From contig NC_005071.1 in NCBI RefSeq assembly GCF_000011485.1, positions 1,615,347 to 1,679,346 of the forward strand: a stretch of 64,000 nucleotides of DNA. The letters run 5' to 3'. Shown piece by piece: positions 7,618 to 62,628 of the stretch (position 1 is its first letter; every line of letters starts with the position of its first letter). Under the pieces are notes generated by a model, which had not been told where the DNA came from, ran no database searches, and worked only from the letters and a program-made list of their open reading frames with translations. This DNA is from Prochlorococcus marinus str. MIT 9313 (GTDB lineage Bacteria; Cyanobacteriota; Cyanobacteriia; PCC-6307; Cyanobiaceae). The position numbers were made by a program, and so were the translations under genes.

Positions 7618-7659
7618 CAGTTCAAAAGCGCAATGCTTGAATGTTAAGTTCCGCTCACT

Positions 7660-7731
<72 letters not shown>

Positions 7732-8353
7732 TCACTCTTTGCAATCTTTCTCAGAGACCTTGGAGCAACATGCCTTTTAAAACCCAAAGGTATATACGAT
7801 CCCTATAGCCAAAAGCCAACCATGAGCAAAATACTAAAAAAGGCATATTTAGACCTGATTGCTCCTCAAGCAGCAGCCAGCTTTTAACATATCTGAGCAA
7901 CAATTGGCCAAATCATCGCTTATCCACTAGAGAGAATGCCTTCAAATCTTTCATCTAGCTTAGAAAAGCTTTAAGCAAGTATAGCACTATTCCTAAAGAA
8001 TCATCCAATACTTTCATCGCCTAACCCTTAACAGGGTGATCACTAAAAAAGAGCGCAAAAGGGCAAGCTTCATATGTTATTACACTTAACAATGGCCTAA
8101 AAAATGAAATACGAGAAGAAATCTAGAATCATCCAAAGAGGTTCAGTAAACACTTTTGCCAAAAGAAACCAAAAACAGCCGCATACGACTTCTGCTCTGC
8201 CCAGGCTATCGATCTAGAATGCACCATAAATCAAAGCAGATCATCAAAGGTCCCTATGAAGAATCAACAGACCTTCCAAAAGATCATTGCTGATCAAAGA
8301 AAGGAAATTAAATTAAAACCAGGTTTCTGAACTGATTGTCAGAGCTATTCAGC
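7732..8353. other. Gene-poor AT-rich spacer
   Basis: About 620 bases after tRNA-Thr hold no frame I can support as a gene. The only short frame of note is a 21-codon ATG frame at 7822-7887, too short to call. Composition is much AT-richer than the flanking infB block. Confidence 0.5.
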
Positions 8354-51191: not shown

Positions 51192-51657
51192 ATCAAGGAT
51201 AAAGCTTGGTCAATGGATCCTCAAAGGCCTTATTTTTAAACTTGGTGGAAATAGTTCATTGTAGCAAAATCCTATCTTCAAATCTTTACCTTTAAGTAGC
51301 TGCTAGCTCCAGAATTTCATCCAGCCAGGCCTGCAACTCCTATCCTGAAGGTTGAGCTTACTTGAGCATATTTATTTTGAAATCTTGCTTATGGTCTTTG
51401 GCAATATTAACTACATGATCAGCACTTATGTTTACTATTGATTGCTATTAAATTAAAGCCCCATCTTCAACTCTGACATAGGGCACGTGCTTGAGATGCA
51501 CCTGAGTAGCTATAGCGATACACCCTTGACACCGGATGCAAAGTCAGACCTCTATTCAAAGGTGAGTGCTGAAACTACAAAAGTGAACTGAAACCAGATT
51601 CCCTCATTGAGGTGATGCGTTCTCAATCCTCACCAAGCGTCGCTTGAGTGCTATAGA
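51192..51657. other. Gene-free spacer upstream of structured RNA candidate
   Basis: About 470 bases with no supportable gene. The end of this stretch carries TATAGA at 51652-51657, a possible -10 box for the RNA element that follows. Confidence 0.45.
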
Positions 51658-51906
51658 TGCATGGGCTACACCTGGCAACAGATCGCTACCGCTGTTCAGC
51701 CAATCAGGCGAGGAGGTGGGCTATCGCTTGATGGATTGCCAACTGTTTGCGGGGCCCGAGAAATAGGGCCCCTAAGCCACCTCATCCGGGAATCCCGCCC
51801 AGGTCCCCTCGAGCCCAAGGGGGTTGTAGTGGCTTTATTCAGGTCTAGATCCGGATGCTTGGGGAGTCATTGGTGCTAACCAGACAGTTCTCTTACTCCC
51901 TATGCA
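51658..51906 (+). ncRNA. Candidate structured RNA of about 250 nt, family unknown
   Basis: The segment closes on itself: TGCATGGG (51658-51665) pairs with CCCTATGCA (51898-51906, one bulge). Inside are AACAG/CTGTT (51677/51696), an 11-bp stem of CCAATCAGGCGA against TCGCTTGATGG (51700-51734), a perfect GGGGCCC/GGGCCCC hairpin (51751-51772) and AAGCCAC/GTGGCTT (51774-51835) enclosing two smaller hairpins. A G-T pair in the second stem favours the plus strand. The only protein frames here are not credible. It does not match tmRNA, RNase P or SRP RNA signatures that I know. This could be a 6S-type or a new RNA. Confidence 0.5.
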
Positions 51907-51954
51907 AAAAGGCCTGGCGCCATTGTTCGTCGGGCTCAGCGCTGTAGATGCAAG

Positions 51955-52046
51955 GGCAAAAAGAAACCCCGCCAAAGGCAGGGTTTCAAGACTTCTCTTT
52001 GGGCGTGTTTCCTTGTTTCCACTCCGAGGAGAAGTCCTCCTCACAA
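51955..52046 (-). ncRNA. Candidate Yfr2-like small RNA
   Basis: On the minus strand a short transcript can be drawn: a possible -10 TATGGT near 52050, then a hairpin GAGGA/TCCTC, two copies of GGAAACA separated by one base (around 52010-52024), and a Rho-independent terminator (GAAACCCTGCC against GGCGGGGTTTC, then TTTTT, 51987-51958). From memory, GGAAACA repeats are characteristic of the abundant cyanobacterial Yfr2/Cyano-1 sRNA family. The length of about 90 nt fits. Confidence 0.5.
51958..51987 (-). terminator. Rho-independent terminator (minus strand)
   Basis: A stem of 10-11 pairs with one mismatch and an AAA/TTT loop, followed on the minus strand by TTTTT. It would end the candidate small RNA at 51955-52046 and possibly readthrough from 52156. 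Confidence 0.75.
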
Positions 52047-52155
52047 ACGAACCATAACGATCGCAACTGTCACTGTGCCAGTTGACCGTGTCAGTTCCAC
52101 AGCCGTCACTAGCTGTTCGCTTGGGGTTGCTCTATTGACGACTATTCAGCTCAAG

Positions 52156-52293
52156 TCACGAATTCCACTGAGTTAGTGGTCCAACTTCACTGCGCTTTTC
52201 CTTTGTCAAAGCCTGCTCAGCTTTGTGCATTGCAACGAGGGAAGCCTCAATACGGCGCAACTCTGCCTCTCGTATGGCTGTGTTCTTATCCAA
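52156..52293 (-). CDS. Possible 45-residue helical protein
   Basis: A TTG-initiated frame reads (M)DKNTAIREAELRRIEASLV, then MHKAEQALTKEKRSE and PLTQWNS. It forms an amphipathic charged helix with a regular heptad look, which is unlikely by chance, but it has no ATG start and no known family. It lies upstream of the small RNA on the same strand. Confidence 0.35.
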   Translation of the reverse strand: MDKNTAIREAELRRIEASLVAMHKAEQALTKEKRSEVGPLTQWNS

Positions 52294-52853
52294 AGTGAAA
52301 ATACTTTTTGGAGTGCATGTAGCAACCTGCGGTTAGCGCTCTCAACTTGAGAACAATACAGAGTTCTTTAGGGGCGACCATGAGCATGGATGCTTATCCA
52401 TTTCCAGCAAGCAGCCAAAACACTGGACTAATTGAAAACTGGCTGATACAGATGAGCATTTATCCCTGCTGACGCCTTGTTCCTGCTTGCTTAGGCCTCG
52501 ATCAGGAGTCCGAGGACGTAGAAACCCTGACAAGCTGTCCTGGACTTGAGGGCATCCAACGCGGGTGCCCTTCTTAATGCCAGTGTTTTCTCTGCTTAAC
52601 AAAAGCTAAGCATATCTTTGATCAGTCTGTGTTCGAACTCATCGATGGCATTGAGCCAGGACACTGCTTTCTTAAAAAGGTTGAGACAACTTATGGATAG
52701 CGCTGAAGGATGAAAACAAAAAGTCATCACCGCCCCAGGGCCAGAAAGCAAATAAGAAAAGCACCGCTCTAAGGCTGGGCTTCACTGGCCAACAAGGGCA
52801 GCACATGATCACCCTTCTGTTGGCCATTCCTGGGGATACCGATAGGAGGGGTC
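52294..52853. other. Spacer containing repeat copy B
   Basis: About 560 bases with no firm gene. It holds the diverged repeat at 52501-52595. A long minus-strand frame (52342-52602) only reads through the repeat and is not credible. Confidence 0.45.
52501..52595. repeat. Dispersed repeat, copy B
   Basis: Diverged copy of 46000-46099: AGGAGTCCGAGGACG, the middle CTTGAGGGCATCCAACG and the best-conserved block GCGGGTGCCCTTCTT are shared with a few small gaps. Same orientation as copy A. Confidence 0.65.
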
Positions 52854-53075
52854 TTAACACTGAGGAATTTGAGAGTCTTCTTCTGATCTTTCGACTGTGG
52901 GATCCCTATAGCAACGCTCTTCAATGATCGGCTTGATCCCTTCCTCCAGCTCTCTTAAAAGCTCTTCTCTAAAGCTGTCGATATTTTCCAGTGTGGGATG
53001 CACAAACCCCGCCTCTTTTGCATCCCAAAACAGCGCCTGAATCGTTCGATGAAAGAGGGGGTGTCTCAGAGGCAT
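52854..53075 (-). CDS. Small hypothetical protein
   Basis: The 73-codon frame from 53075 starts MPLRHPLFHRTIQALFWDAK and continues with an acidic helix (SFREELLRELEEGIKPIIEE). Composition is natural and the frame is clean. A Met at 53102 would add nine residues. No family is recognised. It lies 85 bases downstream of the acid phosphatase gene on the same strand, as a likely co-transcribed gene. Confidence 0.5.
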   Translation of the reverse strand: MPLRHPLFHRTIQALFWDAKEAGFVHPTLENIDSFREELLRELEEGIKPIIEERCYRDPTVERSEEDSQIPQC

Positions 53076-61855: not shown

Positions 61856-62287
61856 TGCTGGTTGTATAACAATGAGATCACACTATTTTCGTGGTTTCGT
61901 TCTCTCCATGATCGCGATCATGGTGCCCTGTGATCTTGCTCACAAGCACCTCTATGTTTTTCGTTCGCAGACCTGTTCGCCTTGTTCAAGCCACTTAGAG
62001 CCGGCTTGGCATTAGTCAGCTGTTCCTTTCATTTGTTCTCGCTCTGATATGCATCAAACACCAGAGCACGGACTTGGATGCAGGATTTACGCATCCCGGC
62101 TCAGTTCAGGACGCACAGCTGTAGTACAAGACGCCGCCGACGTTGAAGAACTCGCGCGGTTTGAGCTGGTCGTATTTGGAGAGCTCCGCAGATGGCGACT
62201 AACGACAGTTTGTATGAACTTTTGCGTGTAGATCGATATGAAACTTCCTGCCCTAATTCAGAAACTCCTGTAAGGGCAATAGTTAAA
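61856..62287. other. Regulatory spacer between acyltransferase and tmRNA genes
   Basis: About 430 bases with no supportable gene. It contains the 18-bp palindrome at 61906-61923 listed separately and the terminator region of the tmRNA at its end. Confidence 0.5.
61906..61923. promoter_or_regulatory. 18-bp perfect palindrome upstream of the acyltransferase gene
   Basis: CCATGATCGCGATCATGG is a perfect dyad whose near edge is 51 bases upstream of the acyltransferase ATG at 61855. The length and position suit an operator or activator box. It contains the cyanobacterial GATC/CGATC motif style but is not the HIP1 octamer. Confidence 0.6.
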
Positions 62288-62585
62288 GGGGCCTCGCAGC
62301 CCCCATGGGTCATTTGGGTGATAAGGCTGACCTCACCCCATCTCCCTTATTAGGGTCAGGCAGCCACGAGGGCAGGCTGACGGGAGAAACGAACGATGTT
62401 GTTCGCAGTTACGGATTTGCTCTTACCGAGCAGGCTTCAGTCACCCTCCTCATACCCCGTCGAAACCATTGCAGCCCCAAGACACCTAAAAGAGGAATGG
62501 AGCTGAGCGGAATCGAACCGCTGTCCGAGACACTGGTGTGGATCACCTAGTCCGCCAAAAGGGGGACACTTCCATTCTGACAGGA
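62288..62585 (-). ncRNA. ssrA: Permuted two-piece tmRNA
   Basis: The minus strand reads first the acceptor piece, with T arm GCGGTTCGATTCCGC and CAGCTCC plus discriminator A ending at 62498. A short intervening segment follows, then the coding piece starting GGGGCTGCAATGGTTTCGAC at 62478. GGGGCTG pairs with CAGCTCC as the acceptor stem. The order is thus circularly permuted, as known in Prochlorococcus and marine Synechococcus. The tag frame (62406-62356) encodes ANNIVRFSRQPALVAA, with resume codon GCG. A GC hairpin near 62288-62304 is the probable 3' end. Outer ends are approximate. Confidence 0.93.
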
Positions 62586-62628
62586 ATGCTGTTCTGTCGC
62601 TCAACAACCCTTGGGGTGTAAAAGCTCA

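Follow-up and report, generated by a model that had tools for sequence, protein, structure and literature searches.

Does the stretch at positions 51658 to 51906 of the window (the 64,000-nucleotide segment analyzed here) encode a single new structured RNA of about 250 nt, as proposed in the first-pass annotation? The window comes from Prochlorococcus marinus strain MIT9313, a member of clade LLIV with a genome of 2,410,873 bp (PMC4421930). The stretch is indeed a GC-rich patch inside an AT-rich spacer (GC content of ∼57%, compared with 38 to 48% in the spacer upstream), several internal stems can be drawn in it, and the pairing of 51751-51757 with 51766-51772 is perfect. Its proposed placement outside the known RNA families also held, as the covariance models of Rfam 15 gave no match at 51658-51906 either at the gathering threshold or up to an E value of 10. 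However, comparison with related genomes shows this stretch to be a mixture of a pseudogene end and a repeat copy, not one molecule, and an independent RNA of 250 nt is unlikely to be encoded here.

The first 50 to 70 nt are the end of a decayed small helix-turn-helix (HTH) gene, located behind a decayed tyrosine recombinase (Table 1). The assignment as a tyrosine recombinase is based on sequence pattern rather than on a Pfam match; recombinase-related ORFs of full length (390 to 450 aa) occur in relatives. In Prochlorococcus strain MIT0701, ∼2.1 kb of extra DNA (L012:2334-4447) is found at window position 51475/51478, the edge of the recombinase remnant. The identity of the HTH pseudogene is evident from positions 51693-51731, which encode CSANQARRWAIA and a stop codon, identical in pattern to the C termini of intact HTH ORFs, such as the one at L011:3954-4124, which matches Pfam HTH_23 and ends with CSANTARKWAGT and a stop codon, and the one in locus L017, which ends with CSANTARRWSEA and a stop codon. 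In the window, the HTH frame is broken by indels, which differ between MIT9313 and MIT0701. The −10 element suggested earlier, TATAGA (51652-51657), derives from codons of the HTH gene and reads TATCGA or CATCGA in related copies. The supposed closing stem TGCAT/ATGCA fares no better: its 5′ arm (51658-51662) is not part of the repeat but lies within the HTH pseudogene, and the 3′ arm is not conserved, being replaced by CTGCA, CTGCG, or CTACA in the other aligned copies. A simple sigma-70 scan of positions 51200-52400, which cyanobacterial promoters can escape, detected no promoter and no plus-strand terminator.

Table 1. Features of the spacer around positions 51658-51906 (window coordinates)
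Feature	Positions	Strand	Evidence
Tyrosine recombinase C-terminal remnant (DIGHVLEMHLSSYSDTPLTPDAKSDLYSKVSAETTKVN, stop)	51475..51591	+	Translation; homologues in L011 and L012
Small HTH gene 3′-end remnant (CYRCMGYTWQQIA, frameshift, CSANQARRWAIA, stop)	51649..51731	+	Intact homologues; contains the proposed 5′ stem arm
∼200-bp repeat copy: last HTH codons and non-coding tail	51708..51905	+	Alignment of seven copies from three genomes
72-nt domain: outer stem GAGGTGG/CCACCTC enclosing two hairpins	51712..51783	+	z of −2.5 to −4.1 in seven copies
Perfect 7-bp GGGGCCC/GGGCCCC hairpin	51751..51772	+	Sequence; 95.9% of cells paired across copies, two broken
Cyano-1/Yfr2 RNA (RF01701)	51986-52050	−	Rfam match, 64.6 bits
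Multicopy sRNA-like element	52488-52577	+	Terminator-like hairpin GGGCATCC/GGGTGCCC and T-rich tail

The rest of the stretch belongs to a repeat of ∼200 bp. A DNA search of the MIT9313 genome (G000) revealed a second copy at 1021241-1021434, and among 60 relatives the repeat was matched in only two further genomes (with three and two copies), those of MIT0701 (G003), also of clade LLIV, and of the single cell AG-412-I05 (G002). The copies are 80 to 95.5% identical to one another, with the highest values reached across different loci and genomes. When the initial 72 nt were modeled, the resulting covariance model recovered exactly these seven copies in 400 genomes of the family, under strict filters that distant relatives may escape. 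Searches of phages, plasmids, and viral contigs found no match to the repeat, and Rfam yielded nothing on it at gathering and permissive thresholds. The repeat is thus non-coding, specific to its clade, low in copy number, and ordinary in kind. It is not described in the consulted text passages of papers on Prochlorococcus ncRNAs, the supplementary tables of which may hold an earlier listing.

The genomic contexts of the copies differ. In the window, the recombinase remnant, the HTH remnant, and the tail follow each other in the natural order, with the genes broken. In L011/L013, a recombinase remnant and an HTH-like remnant precede a DUF3764 gene, after which the repeat restarts with a second HTH-like tail; in L014/L015, the last codons of the DUF3764 gene and the repeat are found upstream of a PAP2 gene; and in L016 the order is inverted, with window position 52784 abutting the left edge of the repeat, and the right side of the repeat enters the Yfr2 terminator. 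At the loci that lack the HTH gene body, the repeat is located behind the DUF3764 gene, beside the PAP2 gene, or behind another ORF. The left edges that lie behind unrelated sequence (L013 and L016) nearly coincide, differing by a few bases in their position within the HTH 3′ end; the right edges vary between loci. Comparison of these contexts across loci did not reveal a clean empty site.

Positions 52633-52860 represent another dispersed non-coding stretch, with a 228-bp copy (95% identical) at G000:1013738-1013965, and window positions 52782-52784 are a rearrangement point in both relatives. A sequence of ∼118 bp (L013:2662-2780) recurs at over 20 sites in the three genomes. In L014, it covers the region upstream of a porin-like ORF without a Pfam match, along with the initial codons of that ORF, so that it might serve as a common promoter and leader. 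A possible distant homologue of the repeat, the hairpin GGGGGCCCACAAAGTAGGCCCC at G000:C1:1117534-1117601 (L048:1501-1568), scored 22.9 bits (E value of 0.07 for the genome). This hairpin is kept at the orthologous place in AG-412-I05 and MIT0701, just upstream of a minus-strand ORF, in a context that differs from those of the repeat, and its short motif is also seen about once per genome in some controls.

Folding of the entire 249 nt was at the level of dinucleotide shuffles, with a z score of −0.64 (48 of 200 shuffles being at least as good) and a similar value, −0.73, for the minus strand. The ∼200-bp element alone gave −0.59 for the window copy, the values for the other copies ranging from +0.1 to −1.9. 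When the element was split in three, only its first 72 nt beat chance, and this domain did so on the minus strand as well (z of −2.9 to −4.8 in all seven copies). Such equal folding of both strands is a property of any Watson-Crick palindrome and therefore does not single out an RNA. Covariation within the domain was at shuffle level (284 of 500 shuffles), as assessed on seven copies that are few and too similar; the score of the RNAalifold structure of the whole element was reached by 19 of 500 shuffles, for a structure fitted to those same seven sequences. What stands of the original proposal is a locally foldable, non-protein, GC-rich stretch, with better-than-chance folding confined to the 72-nt domain. 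The single ∼250-nt RNA with its own −10 element and closing stem does not stand: its ends are wrong, its 5′ part is a pseudogene, the whole folds no better than chance, the scan found neither promoter nor terminator, and covariation is absent or inconclusive. A smaller RNA domain of ∼72 nt or an independent small RNA is conceivable.

No coding signal was detected in the conserved part, in agreement with the earlier statement that the region has no credible protein. Substitutions in the repeat are spread over all codon positions, and in five frames the synonymous fractions do not exceed expectation, the sixth, minus frame 0, being only slightly above it (30% versus the expected 26%); a protein gene in any of the six frames was rejected on these counts and the lack of Pfam matches. 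Between MIT9313 and MIT0701, the window copy of the repeat is 95% identical, compared with 86.5 to 89% for most of the adjoining spacer and 94% for both the DUF805 gene part and the Yfr2 gene. At the spacer rate of 13.4%, this conservation corresponds to a P value of ∼1e-4, and the nearby stretch 52301-52400 also reaches 97% identity. In the orthologous pair at 1021 kb, the repeat (83%) diverges like its non-coding flanks (80 to 83%), with the DUF3764 gene at 96%, so that the repeat drifts there and the constraint is uneven. The higher conservation at the window locus suggests constraint or gene conversion.

The explanation favored here, which is given about an even chance of being correct, is that the repeat represents the non-coding sequence trailing the HTH gene, which was copied or displaced when recombination occurred close to the 3′ end of that gene. 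Positions 51708-51905 would comprise the 3′ end of the small HTH gene and a non-coding downstream tail of ∼175 bp, left behind a decayed tyrosine recombinase/HTH module in an LLIV Prochlorococcus spacer. An att-like or homologous site close to the end of the HTH gene would have been the place of the recombination that moved or displaced this tail. In favor of this explanation are the C-terminal pattern encoded at 51693-51731, the nearly coincident left edges in L013 and L016, the lack of a coding signal and of an RNA-family match, and the divergence of the repeat at 1021 kb at the pace of its flanks. The arrangement in L011/L013, with an HTH-like remnant before and an HTH-like tail after the DUF3764 gene, is the pattern expected of an insertion at a gene 3′ end. 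The GC-rich hairpin would, at most, have ended or terminated the HTH transcript or formed a part of the recombination site, and the tail perhaps has a terminator or recombination role. On the other hand, the window copy is better conserved than most of the adjoining spacer, the right edges differ and clean empty sites were not seen, the intact HTH genes in L011 and L017 are followed by other downstream sequence, and the repeat is absent downstream of full-length recombinase relatives elsewhere and thus is not a fixed part of such modules.

Several other readings have to be weighed against this one. The repeat could represent an LLIV-specific structured RNA of ∼75 to 200 nt, with two or three copies in each genome and its functional core at 51712-51783. 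This possibility is unlikely; in its favor, the domain beats shuffles in all seven copies, copies at different loci and in different genomes are up to 95.5% identical, the window copy is conserved as much as the adjoining DUF805 and Yfr2 genes, and only 19 of 500 shuffles reach the RNAalifold score of the whole element. It has to contend, however, with a domain that folds equally well on both strands, shows the covariation of shuffles, and has the end of a coding sequence as its 5′ stem arm, as well as with the chance-level stability of the whole element, the lack of a promoter or terminator in the simple scan, and the decay of the MIT9313 copy at 1021 kb. The same palindromic domain, together with the dispersal of copies with a common left edge among unrelated contexts and the presence of Y1-type transposase genes in all three genomes, would fit a non-autonomous mobile repeat (MITE- or REPIN-like), that is, a ∼200-bp unit moved by a transposase in trans. 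Such a repeat also appears unlikely, given that there are merely two or three copies per genome, that inspection of the alignments by eye showed neither terminal inverted repeats nor target duplications, and that the left end is a gene end but the right end varies. The Y1-transposase genes or fragments number four to eight in each of the three genomes, several of them short or decayed; a link to Y1/IS200-type transposases was rejected, as the repeat is absent from the loci examined.

It is rather improbable that the two-hairpin 72-nt domain at the HTH 3′ end is an LLIV-private recombination or insertion site or an RNA module by way of which small cargo genes (e.g., DUF3764) are gained, with the old tail pushed downstream at each gain. 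By far the least probable is a small protein gene (∼54 aa) across the repeat: ORFs of 45 to 54 aa do cross several copies, but changes fall on all codon positions, no frame has a clear synonymous excess, three copies contain frameshifts, and there is no Pfam match.

Among known systems, the repeat can be compared with the gene tails displaced upon integration into a gene 3′ end (att sites of tyrosine-recombinase islands), which it resembles in having a recombinase remnant next to the repeat and a gene 3′ end on both sides of the cargo (L011/L013). It differs from them in that no intact element, defined att core, or empty site was seen here and the repeat is absent behind full-length recombinase relatives. 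With MITEs and REPINs, the repeat shares its short length, non-coding nature, dispersal, and palindromic domain, but it has a very low copy number, no visible terminal inverted repeats or target duplications, and no linked transposase. Tycheposons, which are large elements (4 to 200 kb) bordered by a tRNA (PMC10872708), offer a parallel in that they, too, combine a tyrosine recombinase with the exchange of cargo within genomic islands of Prochlorococcus. Identity with a Tycheposon was rejected: a recombinase remnant is present but no tRNA is nearby, the only one in the 64-kb window being located at 7659-7733.

The likelier RNA genes of this spacer are found just downstream, namely Cyano-1/Yfr2, with its intrinsic terminator at 51987-51963, and the multicopy element at 52488-52577. 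The latter has no Rfam match, is highly conserved in ten aligned copies from the three genomes, and gives plus-strand z scores of −1.7 to −3.8. It is plausibly Yfr103, which, according to the text of PMC5069720, is multicopy and exceeds all other ncRNAs of MIT9313 in abundance; this assignment relies on that description. Like the repeat, Cyano-1/Yfr2 and Yfr103 are non-coding, hairpin-rich, present in several copies per genome, and located in the same spacer. Unlike the repeat, which starts within the end of a gene and gave no RF01701 match, they have defined ends and terminators. Farther downstream, a cyanobacterial tmRNA was identified at 62265-62587 on the minus strand (also matched by the permuted tmRNA model), with the tag ANNIVRFSRQPALVAA.

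The supposed single new RNA was a false lead, now corrected to a pseudogene and a repeat, with the likelier sRNAs of the spacer adjoining it. If the repeat is indeed a displaced HTH gene tail, it records the reshuffling of gene tails behind recombinases in the larger LLIV Prochlorococcus genomes. Should recombination at the hairpin domain, or its transcription, be demonstrated, a small system amenable to testing would become available in an ocean bacterium that is already well studied.
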